Source: Lichenicola cladoniae
Lineage (GTDB): Bacteria; Pseudomonadota; Alphaproteobacteria; Acetobacterales; Acetobacteraceae
Direction of reading: 5' to 3'
NCBI RefSeq assembly: GCF_013201075.1
Contig: NZ_CP053708.1
Coordinates: 1,429,501-1,493,500 of the forward strand
Length of the DNA: 64,000 bases
Part shown: piece after piece, positions 24,699 to 49,825 of the stretch
Position numbering within the stretch: position 1 is the first letter of the stretch
How the letters are laid out: the number at the start of each line of letters is the position of its first letter
Translations under genes and position numbers: made by a program
Notes under the pieces: model-generated
Seen by the model: the letters and a program-made list of their open reading frames with translations, nothing else
Databases searched by the model: none
What the model was told of the DNA's origin: nothing

Positions 24699-24773
24699 GG
24701 CGGCGTAGCTCAGCGGTAGAGCAGGAGAATCATAATCTCTTGGTCGGCGGTTCAAATCCGTCCGCCGCTACCA
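24699..24773 (+). tRNA. tRNA-Met (CAT anticodon), elongator type
   Basis: 75 nt including the encoded CCA. Acceptor arms GGCGGCG (24699-24705) and CGCCGCT (24763-24769) pair with a G-U at position 1-72. Anticodon stem GGAGA/TCTCT encloses loop ATCATAA, giving CAT. The T-arm has GGTTCAAATCC. It lacks the three G-C anticodon-stem pairs of initiator tRNA and the overall sequence matches alphaproteobacterial elongator tRNA-Met; a tRNA-Ile2 with lysidine is less likely. Its 3' end abuts the prophage integrase. Confidence 0.93.
24749..24773. other. Candidate attL core at tRNA-Met 3' end
   Basis: Integrases next to tRNA genes usually recombine within the T-arm/3' end, which stays intact. The tRNA is complete here, so the phage-side attachment would duplicate its last 20-50 bp. 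The second copy is outside the window, so exact limits cannot be set. Confidence 0.45.
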
Positions 24774-24832
24774 ACGTGCCGGGTTCTTATCAGACACTTA
24801 CCCGATAATGCTGCGCCGCACCATTGGTGCGT

Positions 24833-25942
24833 TTAGCAGTCGAGAATTTTCGGTTTAGCACTCGGCGTTCTGTTCATGTTCCGTTGCTGGTGCCGCTCCA
24901 CCTTGCGGGCTGCACCCTTGGCACGGGTCTTCTGCTCGGCCTCACGGACGTATCGGCTGACCATGTTCGAGGTCGTGTGGCCGGTCACCGACATGATCTC
25001 GCGCTCACTGCACCCGGCCTCGGCCATCCATCGCGCGGCCGTGGCTCGGAGCCCATGGGTAACTAGGCCCTCCAGTCCAGCGTCCTTGATCGCCTTCGCC
25101 ATCAGGTGCCGGAAATGGTCGAGCATCCACGGCTTGCCGTCCGGTCTGGTTAGGATGGTGGTGGCCGTCTTCGGTGCCGAAGAGAGGGCGACCCGGGCCC
25201 GGGCGTGCAGCGGCACCCAGACCTTCGCGCCGGTCTTCAGCTGCACGACCTCAACCGCGGAGCCGTCGAAGGCGGCCCAGGTCATCGCCACAAGGTCCTG
25301 GCCGCGTTGACCAGTCCCAACCGCCAGCAGGATCGCTAGACGGACCTGCGCGGGCGTTGTCTCGGCGTTGAGCACCTGGTCGAGCTCGACGTCGGTCCAG
25401 GACCGATATCCGACACCCGTCTTCAGCCGCTTCGGTCGTAGAGCAGGGTTGTCTTTCCGCCAGCCGCGGTCGACCGCCCAGCTCAGAAGTAGCGACAGGA
25501 CCGCGACCATTCGGTTAGCCCGGCTCGGCGTCTTGACCGGAGGCGCACCTTCCACGCTCGGCTTGAAGGCGTACCTGTCTCGCAGGGCGAACACGAATTC
25601 GCGCGGCAGCGTCTTGACCGGCAGGTGGCCGAACAACCCCTCGAGCGGCTTCATCGCCTTCTCGTAGTCGCGCTTCGTGCTCGCCTGCTTCTCCGACCAC
25701 TCCGGCGACTTGCGGTAGGCAATGATCAGCGCCCGCATCGACCCCGGCAGAACGCCGGCTGCGGTGGCTGCCTTGGCGTCAGCTGCCTGGGCGGCCGCAT
25801 GCATGTCCTCATACGCTCGTAGGAACGCCGGCTCACCCGGGTAGCCCGGGATGCGCCGCCGCAGCTTGCCACGGCGGTAGTAATAGTAGATCCGACCTTT
25901 GACCGCGATTGCGTCGAGGTATGGGAGATCGATCAGCGCCAT
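24833..25942 (-). CDS. int: Prophage tyrosine integrase
   Basis: 369 aa. N-terminal SAM-like core-binding domain (about 60-160) and catalytic domain with the tetrad: Arg in VGTGQRGQDLV, Lys in LKTGAKVWV, His-x-x-Arg in VTHGLRATAARW, His in SVTGHTTSNM and the nucleophile Tyr in VSRYVRE. Lysine-rich tail. It ends 60 bp from the tRNA-Met CCA, which supports integration there. The start ATG directly abuts the stop of the excisionase-like gene. Confidence 0.95.
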   Translation of the reverse strand: MALIDLPYLDAIAVKGRIYYYYRRGKLRRRIPGYPGEPAFLRAYEDMHAAAQAADAKAATAAGVLPGSMRALIIAYRKSPEWSEKQASTKRDYEKAMKPLEGLFGHLPVKTLPREFVFALRDRYAFKPSVEGAPPVKTPSRANRMVAVLSLLLSWAVDRGWRKDNPALRPKRLKTGVGYRSWTDVELDQVLNAETTPAQVRLAILLAVGTGQRGQDLVAMTWAAFDGSAVEVVQLKTGAKVWVPLHARARVALSSAPKTATTILTRPDGKPWMLDHFRHLMAKAIKDAGLEGLVTHGLRATAARWMAEAGCSEREIMSVTGHTTSNMVSRYVREAEQKTRAKGAARKVERHQQRNMNRTPSAKPKILDC

Positions 25943-26959: not shown

Positions 26960-28753
26960 TCATTCTGCCGCAGCCTTCATCGGGGCTTGATCAAGAGCGT
27001 GCACATTGTTCGCCTGCGCCAAAAGGCGAGCCATTCGTTTTGGAACCGAGTTTCCAATCAGGAACATCGTCTCGGTCTTTGTCAGCCGGCGGCGAACACC
27101 GTCGATCTCGATCCACTCCGGCATCGAGAGTTCGTGGGCACGCGCCGCCTCCATCGGATCGAGCATCCGCATGCCGATGTCCTGGACGACACAGGGCGTT
27201 CCGCCGATCGTGGTCGTGACGACGCCGAACCGCGCCTTGGTCGACAGGGTGTCGAGCGGATCGTTTGCAGCCTGCGAGACGCCGCCTTGGCTGTAGTATT
27301 TGGTCATGAAGGCCGCGACGCAGGACACGTGCGTGCCGCCGCCGGCCGTCAGCGTCGGTACGGGTGCCTCGACATCGTTCGCCGTGCTCGTGCCTCGATG
27401 ATGCGCCAGGAAGGCACCTGCGATCTGCTGCTGCGATCCCACAGTCGTCAGGGTCGATACCGGCGCATCCATGCGTACGCCGATCGCATTGAGGTTGTGC
27501 TGCGCCATCCATGCGGCGACCAGCGCATGCTTAGCGCCGCCGGCGACCTGCGTGCCGATCGGCTCATCGATGTCGAGTGCTCTCGGTGCCTGGCCAGATC
27601 GCTCGCCGTAACCGGTCTGGGCCATGAAGGCGGCGGTCAGGCCGATTGGGATCGCGCACCCCGCCCGCTTGCTGTGGCCGTTCGCAGTGACGGTCGCCAG
27701 CGGCTCTCGCACGTCGATGCCGGTAGAGTTTTGCCGGAACTTGGTCACATGCGGCGCGACAAGCGCCATCTCGCCGCGGTGCGCCGTCGTCACCGTGCGC
27801 AGTGGATCCGCCAGATCATAGATCCGCGGTGCGCCGGTATGAGTGATCGGCATCAGGAACGGGTTCGCATTATTCAGCACGAACTTCGCCATGCCGACCG
27901 CGATCCGCCGGTGGGTCGCATCTGCCAGCGGCTTCTTCCGCTCGAAGATGCTCGGCATCGGGATCGACCAGTCGATGATCGTGTGCGCGCCGACCCATGG
28001 CTCGAGCCCAAGTGCCGCAGCCTGGTCGCGAGGCGCATGCGTCCGGACTGGCCAGTCGATCGCGGCACCGTCGCAGCGCGCGACCGCGAACCAGCGGCGC
28101 CGACTAGTCGGCACGCCGAAGTCCGCGCAGCACAGGTCTCGATCCTCGTACGCATACCCGAGCTTGCGAATGGAGGAGACGAGATGCCGGAACGAGCGGC
28201 CCAGGTTCTTCGGATCCCGGCCGAGCTGCTGCTCGCGGACGGGCACGCGCTCGCCCTTCGCTGCGACCGAGCCGTCCATCTTGATGACGCGCCCCGTGGC
28301 CTTGTCGCGCTTGGCGATCAGCGGACCCCAGCCGCGAATCTCGCGGACGTTCTCCATCATCAGCACCGTGGGACGCATCTTGCCCATCCAGCGCAGCACC
28401 TGCCAGGGCAGCGACCGAACGCGGGCGCTGCGCGGTGCGCCGCCCTTGGCGACCGAGTGGTCCCGGCAATCGGGCGATGCCCACAGGATCTTCACCCTGC
28501 GGCCACCGGTGGCCTGGATCGGATCGACGTCGAAAATATCACCCTTCACATGCTTCGTGTGGGGGTGCACCGCGGCATGTGCTGCCAGTGCGACCGGGTT
28601 GTGGTTGTTCGCCACATGGACCGGGCACCCGGCCTCCTCCAGGCCGTCACACGCGCCGCCACGACCGGCGAACAGCACGACAGTGATCGCGGCATCCAAC
28701 TCCCATTGCGGGAATATCCGTTTGGACTTTTGGTCGCGACTACGGTTGCTCAT
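26960..28753 (-). CDS. Phage DNA cytosine-C5 methyltransferase with repeat-built recognition domain
   Basis: 597 aa. m5C motifs: I (VVLFAGRGGACDG, about 26-38), IV with the catalytic Cys96 in WASPDCRDHS (PDC in place of the usual PCQ), VI MMENV (132-136), VIII SRRRWFAV (217) and X near IGNSVPKRMA (566). Between VIII and X, residues about 316-510 hold six degenerate repeats of a DPLxTxT-x-G-x-HALV unit at 33-46-residue spacing, where the target-recognition domain belongs. It could protect phage DNA from host restriction. It is the longest gene of the leftward operon. Confidence 0.9.
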   Translation of the reverse strand: MSNRSRDQKSKRIFPQWELDAAITVVLFAGRGGACDGLEEAGCPVHVANNHNPVALAAHAAVHPHTKHVKGDIFDVDPIQATGGRRVKILWASPDCRDHSVAKGGAPRSARVRSLPWQVLRWMGKMRPTVLMMENVREIRGWGPLIAKRDKATGRVIKMDGSVAAKGERVPVREQQLGRDPKNLGRSFRHLVSSIRKLGYAYEDRDLCCADFGVPTSRRRWFAVARCDGAAIDWPVRTHAPRDQAAALGLEPWVGAHTIIDWSIPMPSIFERKKPLADATHRRIAVGMAKFVLNNANPFLMPITHTGAPRIYDLADPLRTVTTAHRGEMALVAPHVTKFRQNSTGIDVREPLATVTANGHSKRAGCAIPIGLTAAFMAQTGYGERSGQAPRALDIDEPIGTQVAGGAKHALVAAWMAQHNLNAIGVRMDAPVSTLTTVGSQQQIAGAFLAHHRGTSTANDVEAPVPTLTAGGGTHVSCVAAFMTKYYSQGGVSQAANDPLDTLSTKARFGVVTTTIGGTPCVVQDIGMRMLDPMEAARAHELSMPEWIEIDGVRRRLTKTETMFLIGNSVPKRMARLLAQANNVHALDQAPMKAAAE

Positions 28754-42892: not shown

Positions 42893-42926
42893 GCCTGGGA
42901 TAGAACTGGTGCCTACCGGAGCGGCC

Positions 42927-43790
42927 ATGGAAATCGTGCCGGCTCAGGCAGTTAGCAGTGTCCCGCAGGTCCGCGACGACATGCTTATTCGCATGTGGCT
43001 GCACGGCCGCACGCCGAACACCGTCACCGCTTACGCGGCGGACGCCAACAGCTTCCTCCAGTTCGCGGGGCGGCCGCTCGCCGAGATCGGCCTCGCTGAC
43101 CTCCAGCGGTGGGCCGAAAATCTCAGCGAACAGGCGCCCGCGTCCCGCGCGCGGCGATTGGCGGTGGTGAAGTCGCTGCTCTCGTTCGCCCTCAAGCTCG
43201 GCTACCTGCAGATCGATCCGGGACGGATGCTCCGCATCGAGAAGCCGGCCATCACCAGCGGCGACCACCTTCTGTCTCCGGCCGATGTGTTGCGAATGAT
43301 CGGAATGGAGCCCGACCTTCGCGCGCGCACGATGTTGCGCTTGGTCTACGCCTGCGGCCTCCGGGCTTCTGAAGCGTGCGGCCTTCGCTGGCGCGACATG
43401 ACGGGCACCGACAAGAAGGGTGGCCAGGCCAACATCCTTGGCAAGGGATCGAAATTGAGAACGGCGCTGATCCCAGCGGATCTCTGGCGCGATCTCGCGG
43501 CACTGACCCCGGCGGTCCGGCCCGACTCCCCGGTGGTCCCGGGTCGCCATGGCGGCGCGATGGATCGGCAAGCTCTGCATCGCCTGGTGAAACGAGCGGT
43601 GCGTCGTGCCGGCGTTAACCCTAAGGCCTCGTCGCACTGGCTGCGGCATTCCGCGACGAGCCATGCGATCGCCGGCGGCTGCGACATCCAGACTGTCCGT
43701 GAGCGCCTCGGACACGCGAGCCTCGCGACAACGACGCGGTATGCGCACGCCGCGCCTGACAAAGGCCTGGCGAACTATCTGAAGTACTGA
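42927..43790 (+). CDS. XerC/D-like tyrosine recombinase
   Basis: 287 aa. N-terminal SAM-like domain (WLHGRTPNTVTAYAADANSF, about 30-110) and catalytic domain with Arg in YACGLRASEACGLRW, Lys in GKGSKLRT, His-x-x-Arg in SHWLRHSATSH, His in LGHASLATTTRYAH, and Tyr in the same motif. All catalytic residues are present. The compact size and motifs are closer to Xer than to the phage's own tRNA-adjacent integrase. SD CGGAG supports ATG 42927; GTG 42909 is in frame upstream. Confidence 0.9.
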   Translation: MEIVPAQAVSSVPQVRDDMLIRMWLHGRTPNTVTAYAADANSFLQFAGRPLAEIGLADLQRWAENLSEQAPASRARRLAVVKSLLSFALKLGYLQIDPGRMLRIEKPAITSGDHLLSPADVLRMIGMEPDLRARTMLRLVYACGLRASEACGLRWRDMTGTDKKGGQANILGKGSKLRTALIPADLWRDLAALTPAVRPDSPVVPGRHGGAMDRQALHRLVKRAVRRAGVNPKASSHWLRHSATSHAIAGGCDIQTVRERLGHASLATTTRYAHAAPDKGLANYLKY

Positions 43791-44744: not shown

Positions 44745-45785
44745 ATGAAGCGGATCCTATTCGTCCTGAAGTCCCGCGAGGCAGCCTGGGGCTACAGCGC
44801 CGGCTCGTCCGGGCTGAGCAACTCGGTCCGCTTCGTAGTCGACATGCTGAGCCAGCGCGGCATCGAGGCGAAGTCGGTTGAGGTCGCGGACAACAACGCG
44901 ATCGATGCGGCCGTCACCGCCTATCGGCCCACGCACGTGATCGTCGAGGCGTTCTGGGTCGTTCCCGAGAAGTTCGACGTCCTGAAGACGCTGCACCCGA
45001 CCGTGCGCTGGCTTGTGCGCGATCATTCCGAGACCCCGTTCCTCGCGAACGAGGGCATCGCGTTCGGCTGGACGATCGAGTATCTGCGCCGCGGCGTCGA
45101 GGTCATGTGCAACTCGCCGCGTGCGCGCGCCGACATGCGCGACGTTGCCGCGGCCTGCGGGTTGCCGGAGTCGCTGATTACCTACGGGCCGAACTTCTAC
45201 CCATGCCCGGCGGCGCGGTTCATCGTGCCGAAGCCGGTCAATCGCGAAGCGATCGACATCGGCTGCTTCGGCGCCGTGCGGCCGCTGAAGAACCACATGG
45301 CCCAGGCCATCGCAGCGATTGCCTTCGCCGACGCCGCGCGTGTGAAGCTACGGTTCCACGTGAATGCGACGCGGATCGAAGGCAATGGTGACCCGATCCT
45401 CAAGAACCTGCGTTCGCTGTTCGATGCCACGCCGCGCTACTCGCTCATCGAGCACGACTGGATGTCGCACCACGACTTCCTCGAGGTGATCCGGCAGATC
45501 GACGTGTCGATGCAGGTGTCCTTCACGGAGACATTCAACATCGTCGCCGCCGATGCTGTCGCGATGTCGGTGCCGGTGTTGGCCTCGCCCGAGTTGCCGT
45601 GGCTGGGTGCTTATGCCCACGCCCTGCCGACCTCCACGGCATCTATGGCCAGGTCTCTGATGGCGATCTGGAACGAGAGCCATGCGGAACAGAACGCCCG
45701 GCTGCACCGGCAGAGGCACGAGCTGATCGGCTACAGCCAGCGCAGTGAAGACGTCTGGGTCGGCCGTTTCGGTCCACGCTTCTAG
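44745..45785 (+). CDS. Phage GT-B fold glycosyltransferase
   Basis: 346 aa. Two Rossmann-like halves: MKRILFVLKSREAAWGYSAG at the start and DIGCFGAVRPLKNHMAQA in the middle; the C-terminal half has VSFTETFNIVAADAVAMSVP, the E-x7-type GT4 donor-site motif. Acceptors could be phage DNA bases, capsid or host surface sugar. It lies between the anti-defence candidate and the packaging genes. Confidence 0.8.
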   Translation: MKRILFVLKSREAAWGYSAGSSGLSNSVRFVVDMLSQRGIEAKSVEVADNNAIDAAVTAYRPTHVIVEAFWVVPEKFDVLKTLHPTVRWLVRDHSETPFLANEGIAFGWTIEYLRRGVEVMCNSPRARADMRDVAAACGLPESLITYGPNFYPCPAARFIVPKPVNREAIDIGCFGAVRPLKNHMAQAIAAIAFADAARVKLRFHVNATRIEGNGDPILKNLRSLFDATPRYSLIEHDWMSHHDFLEVIRQIDVSMQVSFTETFNIVAADAVAMSVPVLASPELPWLGAYAHALPTSTASMARSLMAIWNESHAEQNARLHRQRHELIGYSQRSEDVWVGRFGPRF

Positions 45786-46529: not shown

Positions 46530-47042
46530 ATGGGACGACCGCGCAAGCCAACGCACCTGAAGGTCGTTGGCGGCACCGCGCAGCCCTGCCGCACCAACAA
46601 GGCGGAGCCGAAGTTGAAAGCCGCGAGACTCGCGGCACCGGCGCATCTCTCCCGACGCGCGAAGTTGGCGTGGGCGAAGGCCTCTCGCCTGCTGCACGAT
46701 ATGGGCGTGCTGACGGTTGCCGACGGGGTCGCGCTCGAGGGGCTCTGCGAAGCAATCGCGGATCAGCGCGATGCGCGCAGCTCGCTGAGCGAGGCCGTCA
46801 GCTACGTGCATCAGGAGCACGGCGCGCCGCGGGAGGTGCAGATCGCTGCGGCCGGATCGCTCACCTACATCACGGTCGGCAACAGCGGCCCGATGATCCG
46901 CATGCGGCCCGAGGTGGCAGCGATCGCAGATGCTGACCGCAGGGTGTCGATGTGGCTCGCGAAATTCGGCCTGACGCCCGCCGACCGGTCGCGCGTCGGA
47001 GCTGCAGGAATGGAGAAGACAAACCCGTTCGCGGCGCTCTGA
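46530..47042 (+). CDS. terS: Terminase small subunit (P27 family)
   Basis: 170 aa. P27-type: RPRKPTHLKVVGGTAQP start, LSRRAKLAWAKASRLL, and C-terminal FGLTPADRSRVG. Binds the packaging site and recruits TerL. The large subunit starts 23 bp downstream. Confidence 0.9.
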   Translation: MGRPRKPTHLKVVGGTAQPCRTNKAEPKLKAARLAAPAHLSRRAKLAWAKASRLLHDMGVLTVADGVALEGLCEAIADQRDARSSLSEAVSYVHQEHGAPREVQIAAAGSLTYITVGNSGPMIRMRPEVAAIADADRRVSMWLAKFGLTPADRSRVGAAGMEKTNPFAAL

Positions 47043-47065: not shown

Positions 47066-49825
47066 ATGAAGCCCAAGCGGCCGCCGGCGGCGCCACACGT
47101 CGCCCAGGCCGACCGCTACGCCCTGGCGGTGGTCGAGGGCCGCGTGCCGGCCTGCAAGTGGGTGCTCCTGGCCTGTGAGCGGTATCGACGCGACCGCAGC
47201 CGGGAGATCGATCCGGCCTGGCCCTATCGCCTGGACGAGGTCAGGGCCGAGCGCGTGTGTCGCTTCGCCGAGCTCATGCCCCATACGAAGGGGAAGTGGG
47301 CACTGCATAAGCAGATGCTGGTCCTGGAGGACTGGCAGGCCTTCTGCCTGGTCAACCCGTTCGGGTGGGTCCGCAAGGCGGACGGGCTGAGGCGATACCG
47401 GATCGTCCTGATCCTGGTGCCGCGAAAGAACGGCAAGGCGCTCGCCCTCGACACCCCGATCCCTACGCCGTCCGGATGGACTACCATGGGTGATCTACGG
47501 GCAGGCGATTCGGTCTTCGGGCCAGATGGTAGTGTGCGCCATGTGGCTGCGACCACAGCGCCTATGCACGACCGGCCCTGCTACCGGCTCGCCCTTGCCG
47601 ACGGCGAGTCCATTGTCGCGGACGCTGAGCACCAGTGGCTGACTGATGCACGTCAGGATCGCGACCGTCTGAAAGGACGCGGCAGAAAGACGGCAGGAGC
47701 CAAGCCGAGCATAAAGACCACACGAGAGATTGCTCTGACGCTGTTGTGCCGAGAGGAGCGGAACCACCGCCTAACTCTTCCGGCTCCCTTCGAGCTTCCG
47801 GAAGTTTATCTGCCCATCGAGCCGTATACGTTGGGCGCTTGGCTTGGCGACGGGACGACCGCTGCGGGAATCATCACCATCGGGCAGCAGGACGCTGCAA
47901 GCATGGAGGTCATCCTCGGTGAAGTCGGGCAGGTGATCTCGAAGCGCCATGGATGTGCGTACCGGCTTGGCACGGGAGTTCGGTCGGCGGAACGCTTCCG
48001 CTCCGTCCAGGCGCGGCTGCGCGGCTTAGGGGTGTTGGGTAACAAGCACATCCCGCAGAGCTACCTGCGCGCGGGTTCTCGACAGCGGATGGCTCTCCTG
48101 CAGGGCCTGATGGACACCGATGGCTATGTGTCTGCGGCCGGTCAGTGTGAGTTCACCTCGACCTCCAAAACCTTGGCCCAGGGTGTCGAGGAGCTGCTCT
48201 GGGGCCTCGGCTTCAAGCCGCTCGTGACGGAGGGTGTCGCTACCCTGCAGGGGCGAGTGATCAGCGCTAAGTGGCGCATCCAGTTCTGGGCCACGCAAGA
48301 GCGTTCCGTGTTTCGGCTCCCGCGTAAGGCGGCGCGTCTGAAGCCGAAGCTCGTCAGGGCAACCAGGTCGCAGACCAGGCAAGTTTCCGCCTGCGAGCCT
48401 GTTGCCTCCGTGCCGGTGCGCTGCATTCAGGTCGACCATCCCGACGGCATGTTCCTGGTGGGACGATCCTTCGTCCCCACGCACAACTCTGCACTGTCGG
48501 CGCCGGTCGGCCTCTACATGATGGCGGCCGACGACGAGCACGGTGCCGAGGTCTATTGCGGCGCGACGACCGAAAAGCAGGCCTGGGAGGTTTTCCGGCC
48601 GGCGACGCTGATGGCTCGCGGCCGTCCCGACCTGCTCAGCCACTACGGCATCAAGGTCAACGCCTCGAACATCCACATCGCGGCCAACAGCAGCCGCTTC
48701 GAGCCGGTGATCGGCAAGCCTGGCGACGGTGCATCACCGTCCTGCGCGATCGTGGACGAGTACCACGAGCACGATACGCCCGAGCTCTGGGACACGATGC
48801 TCACCGGCATGGGTGCTCGCGAGCAGCCGATGATGTGGGGCATCACGACCGCCGGCGACAACATCGCGGGCCCCTGCTTCGACCTGGTGCTGACCGGGCG
48901 GAAGGTGCTCGAGGGCACGATCGAGAACGAGGAGCTGTTCTACCTCGAGTACAGCATCGATGAGGACGACGAGTGGACCTCTCCGGACGCCCTCCGGAAG
49001 GCGAACCCGAACATGGGCGTTTCCGTCCTGGAGGAATTCCTGCTCGCCCGGCAGCGCGAGGCGATCCGGAATCCGCGCCAGCAGGCCGTCTTCAAAACGA
49101 AGCATCTCAATCTGTGGGTCAACTCGCGGGCCGCCTACTTCAACATGCAGTCCTGGTTCCGGTGCTGCCAGCCCGATTTCGACGAGACGGCCTGGTACGG
49201 CCGTCGAGCGATCATCGGCCTCGACCTTGCGTCGAAGAACGACATCGCCGCGCTGCAGGTGCTGATCCCGCTCGACGATGGGCGCTACGTTACCTTCGGC
49301 CGCTACTATTTGCCGCGCGAGATCCTCGAGCAGACGGGCAAGGAACACTACTACGCCTGGTCCTGCGAGGATCCGGCGCTGCTGATCCTGACCGAAGGCA
49401 ACATGATCGACTTCGAGCAGATCGAGGCAGACATCGACGAGCTGCGGAAGCTGTTCGATGTCGAGGAGCTGACCTTCGACCCCTCGCAGGCAACGATGCT
49501 CACGACACGACTGATGGCAAAGGGGGTCACGGTGACGCAGTTCGACCAGAACGCGCGCAACTTCTCCGAGCCGATGAAGGAAGTTGCCGGCTTGCTCGAT
49601 GCCGGGCGGATCATTCACGGGTGCAGCCCCAAGCATCCGATGAGCTGGATGATGTCGAACGTCACCGCGCGCCAGGACGCCAAGGAGCAGGTCTATCCGC
49701 GCAAGGAGAAGCCGGAGAACAAGATCGACGGACCGGTCGCCCTGATCATGGCGATGGGCCGCGCGCTGCTGACAGGCGTCCGGCAGGAGTCCGTCTACGA
49801 AAGCCGCGGCTTGCTGGTGCTCTGA
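47066..49825 (+). CDS. terL: Terminase large subunit with in-frame intein
   Basis: 919-aa precursor; 569 aa after intein removal. N-extein 124 aa ends VPRKNGK at the Walker A site; C-extein resumes SALSAPVGLYMM, giving RKNGKS after splicing. Downstream: IVDEYHEHDT (Walker B-type with DE), WGITTAGD coupling motif, and nuclease-domain acidic residues near IGLDLASKNDIAAL. I chose ATG 47066 because earlier in-frame ATG lies inside terS. The stop overlaps the portal ATG by 1 bp. Confidence 0.93.
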   Translation: MKPKRPPAAPHVAQADRYALAVVEGRVPACKWVLLACERYRRDRSREIDPAWPYRLDEVRAERVCRFAELMPHTKGKWALHKQMLVLEDWQAFCLVNPFGWVRKADGLRRYRIVLILVPRKNGKALALDTPIPTPSGWTTMGDLRAGDSVFGPDGSVRHVAATTAPMHDRPCYRLALADGESIVADAEHQWLTDARQDRDRLKGRGRKTAGAKPSIKTTREIALTLLCREERNHRLTLPAPFELPEVYLPIEPYTLGAWLGDGTTAAGIITIGQQDAASMEVILGEVGQVISKRHGCAYRLGTGVRSAERFRSVQARLRGLGVLGNKHIPQSYLRAGSRQRMALLQGLMDTDGYVSAAGQCEFTSTSKTLAQGVEELLWGLGFKPLVTEGVATLQGRVISAKWRIQFWATQERSVFRLPRKAARLKPKLVRATRSQTRQVSACEPVASVPVRCIQVDHPDGMFLVGRSFVPTHNSALSAPVGLYMMAADDEHGAEVYCGATTEKQAWEVFRPATLMARGRPDLLSHYGIKVNASNIHIAANSSRFEPVIGKPGDGASPSCAIVDEYHEHDTPELWDTMLTGMGAREQPMMWGITTAGDNIAGPCFDLVLTGRKVLEGTIENEELFYLEYSIDEDDEWTSPDALRKANPNMGVSVLEEFLLARQREAIRNPRQQAVFKTKHLNLWVNSRAAYFNMQSWFRCCQPDFDETAWYGRRAIIGLDLASKNDIAALQVLIPLDDGRYVTFGRYYLPREILEQTGKEHYYAWSCEDPALLILTEGNMIDFEQIEADIDELRKLFDVEELTFDPSQATMLTTRLMAKGVTVTQFDQNARNFSEPMKEVAGLLDAGRIIHGCSPKHPMSWMMSNVTARQDAKEQVYPRKEKPENKIDGPVALIMAMGRALLTGVRQESVYESRGLLVL
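47438..48487 (+). mobile_element. Class 3-type intein with LAGLIDADG endonuclease in terL
   Basis: 350 aa. Starts ALALDTPIPTPSGW with Ala at position 1 instead of Cys/Ser/Thr, and ends VPTHN followed by Ser+1. Class 3 triad residues appear in place: W67 in EHQW (block B), C329 in PVRCIQV (block F) and T348 in PTHN (block G). Homing endonuclease motifs YTLGAWLGDG (130-139) and ALLQGLMDTDG (219-229). Splicing would restore the Walker A motif. Confidence 0.92.

Follow-up and report, generated by a model that had tools for sequence, protein, structure and literature searches.

A predicted class 3 intein with a LAGLIDADG endonuclease domain in the Walker A motif of a Lichenicola cladoniae prophage terminase

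In the window analysed here, a 64,000-nucleotide stretch of the Lichenicola cladoniae genome (NZ_CP053708.1, positions 1,429,501 to 1,493,500), a phage terminase gene is interrupted in its Walker A motif by a long in-frame insert. This raises the question of what kind of element the insert is, how it could leave the protein, and what its position means for the host enzyme. The initial annotation described 350 residues splitting RKNGK from SALS inside the P-loop, with a non-nucleophilic Ala1 and a terminal His-Asn before Ser+1. The translation bears this out: the insert is open over all 350 residues, starts with Ala1 and ends with His349-Asn350, directly followed by Ser+1. The flanks read LILVPRKNGK upstream and SALSAPVGLY downstream, so that Walker A is split between Lys and Ser (RKNGK/SALS, the slash marking the insertion point). 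Coordinates are collected in Table 1.

The terminase of Komagataeibacter phage phiKM1 has no intein and provides an empty site: the joined exteins are 66.0% identical to it over 533 residues. This alignment is gap-free within 25 columns of the junction, and its score is 1860 for the spliced form versus 1566 for the unspliced one. Seven further intein-less relatives all carry GK followed by Ser or Thr at the junction (7/7), with at most one gap nearby in six of them and two in L132. Since phiKM1 and these seven relatives align across the junction, the insert interrupts the P-loop between Lys and Ser. The site is of the TerL1-a type, with the Walker A Lys followed by Ser.

The host gene encodes a terminase large subunit. 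Both extein domains of the precursor were recognised by Pfam (PF20441 TerL_nuclease, 1.7e-37; PF03354 TerL_ATPase, 6.3e-15), and the protein belongs to phrog_9 TerL (5.5e-151). ATPase and nuclease domains are thus in one chain, encoded next to the small subunit and portal genes. The longer start given by the ORF finder, a GTG at 46952, lies within the terminase small subunit gene; the ATG at 47066 is probably the start, in which case the precursor would have 919 residues and the mature protein 569. Third-position GC is lower in the intein (0.74) than in the two exteins (0.90 and 0.89), as might be expected of acquired DNA.

Table 1. Positions of the intein, its host gene and associated features (window coordinates, except for the second intein)
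Feature	Position	Strand	Evidence
attL, 58-bp exact repeat including the 3' part of tRNA-Met	24727..24784	+	repeat search
Terminase small subunit gene	46530..47042	+	phrog_83, 1.1e-28
Terminase large subunit precursor gene, probable ATG start	47066..49825	+	PF20441, PF03354, phrog_9; start choice inferred
N-extein, ending in Walker A ...PRKNGK	47066..47437	+	translation, empty-site alignment
Class 3 intein, Ala1 to Asn350, 350 residues	47438..48487	+	translation, phmmer, alignment, model, Foldseek
Cys48, counterpart of M. smegmatis DnaBi1 Cys48 (disulfide with catalytic Cys118)	47579..47581	+	phmmer alignment, PMC6195587
Block B core D62-A-E-H65-Q-W67	47621..47638	+	alignment
First LAGLIDADG motif LGAWLGDG, residues 132-139 (D138)	47831..47854	+	alignment
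Second LAGLIDADG motif LLQGLMDTDG, residues 220-229 (D226, D228)	48095..48124	+	alignment, Pfam
Cys329, block F:4, putative catalytic nucleophile	48422..48424	+	phmmer alignment
Block G Thr348-His349-Asn350	48479..48487	+	alignment
C-extein from Ser+1: ATPase remainder and nuclease domain	48488..49822	+	Pfam, empty-site alignment
Second intein, 153-aa class 3 mini-intein, P-loop site GRRFGK/TFLM	G000:C1:2340011-2340217; L002; L147:7572-9389	- (genome match)	

To assign the insert to an intein class, we compared it with solved structures by phmmer. The class 3 inteins 6bs8, 6rix and 6riy matched with full-sequence E values of 7.1e-31, 1.3e-29 and 7e-29, aligned over residues 1 to about 71 and about 314 to 350 of the insert (349 for 6riy). 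W67 aligns with the Trp of 6bs8 and C329 with the Cys of its 'VPVRC' motif, which are Trp67 and Cys118 of M. smegmatis DnaBi1. The placement of W67, C329 and T348 in blocks B, F and G, which the initial annotation had proposed as a class 3 signature, therefore stands, and neither the Trp nor the Cys falls outside its block. D62, H65, W67, C329 and T348 are where the annotation put them or where class 3 inteins require them: Trp at B:12, Cys at F:4, and Thr at G:5 followed by His-Asn and a nucleophile (Ser) at +1. Class 3 needs no Cys, Ser or Thr at residue 1, and Ala stands there. W67, C329, T348, D62, H65, H349 and N350 are invariant in the aligned sequences (25/25).

The Ala at residue 1 also excludes a class 1 intein, which has Cys, Ser or Thr at this position. 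Class 2 inteins have no block F:4 Cys nucleophile and lack the WCT set, so this class was rejected as well. Ala1 alone would suit a class 2-like mechanism, with direct attack of Ser+1 on the N-junction, because class 2 inteins likewise have no nucleophile at residue 1 (PMC5222942). However, the block F Cys and the whole WCT set are present and the closest solved relatives by sequence are class 3, which makes such a mechanism hardly credible.

An AlphaFold model of the insert, built on the alignment of 25 sequences, has a mean pLDDT of 91.7 and predicts a HINT domain into which a LAGLIDADG domain is inserted. The first-ranked Foldseek match was PI-SceI, the VMA intein (1ef0, E 9.2e-21), over nearly the whole length; it shares this domain arrangement at 16% sequence identity. 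PI-SceI itself belongs to class 1, with Cys1, and its host is a eukaryotic ATPase. Among class 3 structures, 6bs8 and 6rix/6riy gave TM scores of 0.79-0.88 by target length (0.85-0.88 for the 6bs8 chains, with 6bs8_C at 0.88), at 18-19% identity. The rmsd of these alignments is high (9.8-16.1), because they cross the endonuclease that is missing from those mini-inteins.

The paired LAGLIDADG motifs noted at first inspection were recovered as LGAWLGDG and LLQGLMDTDG, and Pfam LAGLIDADG_3 (PF14528) matches residues 216-266 (E 1.1e-7). D138 and D228 provide the catalytic acids of the two motifs, and D226 is also kept, as is K203 in block D. These residues suggest that the insert has endonuclease activity. 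Taken together, we conclude with high confidence that the insert is a class 3 intein, carrying a LAGLIDADG endonuclease like that of PI-SceI and predicted to splice, in the Walker A motif of the terminase large subunit of a tailed-phage prophage with a tail-sheath gene.

The prophage is bounded by two exact copies of a 58-bp repeat. The other copy is in the same genome (G000:C1:1511715-1511772), 57.5 kb away, and these paired att repeats indicate a prophage span of about 57.5 kb. The tRNA-Met gene occupies 24699-24773, with an integrase gene (24833-25942) beside it, and the packaging, head and tail genes sit between the att repeats. Ten window genes were profiled; besides the large terminase subunit, they gave matches to small terminase subunit, portal, head/protease, major head, tail sheath, baseplate hub and tape measure families.

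We also observed a second tyrosine recombinase in the prophage (42909-43790, forward strand; Phage_integrase, 2.1e-26), far from the integrase at the tRNA side. A glycosyltransferase-like gene (44745-45785, forward strand), with a weak Pfam match below the cut-off, is flanked by a DUF3164 gene on one side and the HNH/terminase genes on the other, and was unexpected in a packaging module. The prophage further carries a gene for a 597-aa C5 cytosine DNA methyltransferase (26960-28753, reverse strand), possibly serving the self-protection of phage DNA.

The general expectation of prophage decay would favour a degenerate intein that has lost splicing, leaving the terminase and so the prophage dead. 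We consider this very unlikely: the checked splicing residues and the open frame are kept, both extein domains and the scanned structural genes are recognised, and the endonuclease acids are retained. A pseudogene was likewise rejected, as the precursor gene has no visible lesion.

For a functional class 3 intein, the terminase would be made as a precursor that is presumably inactive, because its P-loop is interrupted between Lys and Ser. Disruption of ATPase function by a P-loop intein is known for RadA, as cited in PMC6195587. In the published class 3 scheme, the block F Cys attacks before residue 1, the +1 residue takes the acyl group and the Asn cyclises (PMC5222942, PMC7664689); splicing of the Msm DnaB-1 intein is described in PMC5222942. 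By analogy, we infer that the insert splices in this order. Cys329, in a Cys-His65-Thr348 site, would attack the Lys(-1)-Ala1 bond and form the class-specific branched thioester, and Ser+1 would take over the N-extein through transesterification. Cyclisation of Asn350 and an O-to-N acyl shift would then yield the uninterrupted RKNGKSALS P-loop, and packaging would depend on splicing. The endonuclease would cut intein-less terminase genes of related phages at the same site and so spread the element.

The closest characterised systems are mycobacterial DnaB inteins. M. smegmatis DnaBi1 (6bs8) and M. chimaera DnaB1 (6rix) share class 3, Ala1, WCT at 67/F:4/G:5 and Cys48 with the window intein, and both ends of the splicing domain are homologous. 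The M. smegmatis insertion site is a GK/S P-loop as in the window. In contrast, their host is a replicative helicase, and M. smegmatis DnaBi1 has no endonuclease domain. The terminase of Caulobacter phage phiCbK, also an alphaproteobacterial phage, has a 341-residue intein between Lys130 and Ser472 that by its description resembles the window intein in the terminal HN and a non-nucleophilic residue 1, but this residue is Pro instead of Ala (PMC3556154).

Terminase is reported as the commonest intein host in mycobacteriophages, including a P-loop Lys/Thr site (PMC5050341). In that study (Kelley et al. 2016), TerL1 has ATPase and nuclease domains as in the window, and site TerL1-a lies between the P-loop Lys and Thr, like the Lys/Ser site here. 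The authors tied the TerL1 class 3 inteins to DnaB-b, at sites c and e instead of the P-loop site. They showed splicing for five other mycobacteriophage terminase inteins and cutting for two endonucleases (PMC5050341). We found a WCT intein at KNGK/T in phage Easy2Say, 36.5% identical to the window intein. A 2020 paper counted 1701 class 3 inteins in nr, 82.5% with LAGLIDADG (PMC7891396). Both class 3 inteins and inteins in terminase P-loops, such as that of phiCbK at K/S, are thus already published, and the window intein is a further example.

To examine how general its features are, we collected relatives. The intein matched 748 of 50,697 phage records by tblastn; weaker matches are partial, so that 748 is a number of records with a match, which need not all be class 3 inteins. 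Loci were taken from genomes (80 kept of 280) and from viral contigs (22 in one scan, the best 80 of 590 in a second), and 12 intein-bearing regions came from named phages. Because the second viral scan covers the best 80 of 590, distant members are under-sampled. Of the ORFs that matched at the N-terminal end, 2 of 205 were left out because they were cut or had no usable C-terminal match. Removal of identical inteins reduced 215 rows to 191: 79 from genome loci, 15 and 75 from the two viral scans, and 11 each from phage records and whole genomes.

Trp, Cys, Thr, H65 and N350 were present in 191/191 unique inteins, H349 in 190/191 and D62 in 178/191, with 75 rows drawn from the best 80 of 590; the 191/191 counts are partly conditioned, as ADAEH[QL]W is part of one search pattern and a row was used only if it matched the C-terminal profile. 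All 191 have Ser or Thr at +1, which is already published for class 3, with Bvi IcmO as the sole exception named (PMC5222942). Lys occupied -1 in 79/79 inteins of genome loci, 15/15 of the first viral scan, 9/11 of phage records, 8/11 of whole genomes, and 74/75 of the viral scan unselected on junctions (from the best 80 of 590). An obligatory Lys at -1 was nevertheless rejected, since 6/191 have G, A, E or Q there. The terminases of mycobacteriophages Nebkiss (E/S) and Anglerfish (Q/T) are such cases, and the Bvi IcmO intein comes after Phe and has Cys at +1 (PMC5222942).

Some related inteins differ at residue 1. Genomes of the same family (L105, L106, L107) carry Pro1 class 3 inteins in a gpA-type terminase, at P-loop sites with Ala or Gly replacing Lys (GAQVGA/T, GAQVGG/T). 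The WCT-type terminase intein of Acidovorax phage ACF1 (L259, 463-1512) has Cys at residue 1.

The C-exteins of the 191 inteins form 21 clusters. Representatives of 17 were scanned and matched DnaB, several terminase families, AAA_25, FtsK, primase/helicase and dCTP deaminase, with a few weakly matched or unmatched. Insertion at a Lys outside P-loops was found in dCTP deaminase (EGK/SS) and in exonucleases labelled Cas4-type by the annotation of their phage records (DYK/T, DWK/T). The insertion-site lysines of these two enzyme types are catalytic. The E/S and Q/T sites of the two mycobacteriophage terminases named above also lie outside P-loops. A self-excising dCTP deaminase intein is known from cyanophage CL131 (PMC6293099). 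The same host protein occurs in L003 (5001-6038), a Chloroflexota MAG with a class 3 intein at EGK/SS.

A quick maximum-likelihood tree was built from 127 inteins, for which the DnaB rows were thinned to every fifth (16 of 80). The nearest relative of the window intein is that of L003 (SH-aLRT 91, not starred), whose host protein is unrelated to terminase; their 52% identity, the highest to any relative, is moderate. The tree needs 29 host-label changes, where the least possible is 14 and the shuffled mean 67.1. The number of host switches is uncertain because the starred inner branches (33/124) force few of these changes. Among the starred sets that comprise at most half of the tree rows, none contains the window intein.

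Cys48 lies in a local RPCY motif aligned with that of M. smegmatis DnaBi1. It was found in 177/191 unique inteins (75 rows from the best 80 of 590), and in 67/75 of the viral-scan inteins from the best 80 of 590, found with patterns that do not cover Cys48. Its absence from 14/191 speaks against a universal Cys48. In DnaBi1, a Cys48-Cys118 disulfide gives reversible inhibition; PMC6195587 calls Cys48 non-conserved and reports that every Cys48 change tried abolished splicing. The conservation argues for a structural or catalytic role of Cys48 in most class 3 inteins, whereas a regulatory role is only possible.

By analogy with DnaBi1, a Cys48-Cys329 disulfide formed under oxidation might pause terminase maturation, in addition to splicing, and act as a redox-gated packaging switch. 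The shared RPCY motif, the disulfide shown in DnaBi1 and the conservation of Cys48 in the viral scan and in all seven mini-inteins described below are consistent with this. However, Cys48 may be a plain splicing requirement, as the DnaBi1 changes would suggest, and conservation, with 14 inteins lacking the residue, does not by itself demonstrate regulation. We therefore regard a redox switch as unlikely.

A search of the organism's own genome revealed one further match, a 153-residue class 3 mini-intein in a different terminase family. Its gene cluster (L147, L149; G000:C1:2312000-2350000) includes genes for the small terminase subunit, capsid, tail sheath and tail, shows weak matches to portal and scaffold proteins, and adjoins gatB/gatA. 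Recent copying between the two inteins was rejected, since they are 45% identical at each splicing-domain end.

The mini-intein was found in 7/195 genomes, five of the genus (own included) and one each in two other genera. All seven keep A1, Cys48, D62, H65, W67, the block F Cys, THN and Thr+1, and they form their own 7-row set in the quick tree (SH-aLRT 99), where two of the seven are flagged as long branches. An intein-less copy of the second terminase is present in G005 (L162). For the capsid, the portal and the second-terminase C-extein, dN is below dS, but in most pairs dS is close to 1 or higher and thus saturated. The mini-intein changes faster, with 58.6% identity to G004 versus 86.5% for the C-extein, and its dN is below dS wherever dS could be computed. 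The gatB/gatA synteny is shared by L150, L151 and L152 and is absent from the stretch taken in L154 and L155; L153 is a 9.1-kb contig that ends short of this position.

Based on its distribution, kept residues, dN/dS and synteny, the second cluster looks vertically inherited within the genus. It could also be a recurrent, widespread prophage family, with which the three copies of the second terminase in G005 fit. A domesticated GTA-like element could account for the presence of its capsid protein in 58/195 related genomes, but the terminase C-extein has a near full-length match in seven genomes alone, with partial or weak matches in eight more.

The window intein is a class 3 intein with clear boundaries and an apparently intact endonuclease, and its prophage terminase can be compared with a clean intein-less relative. 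Furthermore, two class 3 inteins of this genome, one full-length and one endonuclease-free, form a natural pair, each in the P-loop of a separate terminase. With this pair it can be tested whether a P-loop intein in a packaging motor is merely tolerated or acts as a conditional lock, and whether Cys48 as a redox partner is general to class 3 or a quirk of the mycobacterial DnaB intein. A joint reading, which we hold to be quite unlikely, is that most class 3 inteins specialise in a catalytic or nucleotide-binding Lys before Ser/Thr across unrelated folds (at least six P-loop NTPase families, dCTP deaminase at EGK/SS, Cas4-type nuclease at DYK/T), most with the Cys48-block F Cys pair as a possible redox latch, and that in this bacterial lineage one such P-loop intein lost its endonuclease and was kept in a seemingly vertically inherited phage-like cluster. 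If this were true, splicing would be a standing control on DNA packaging.
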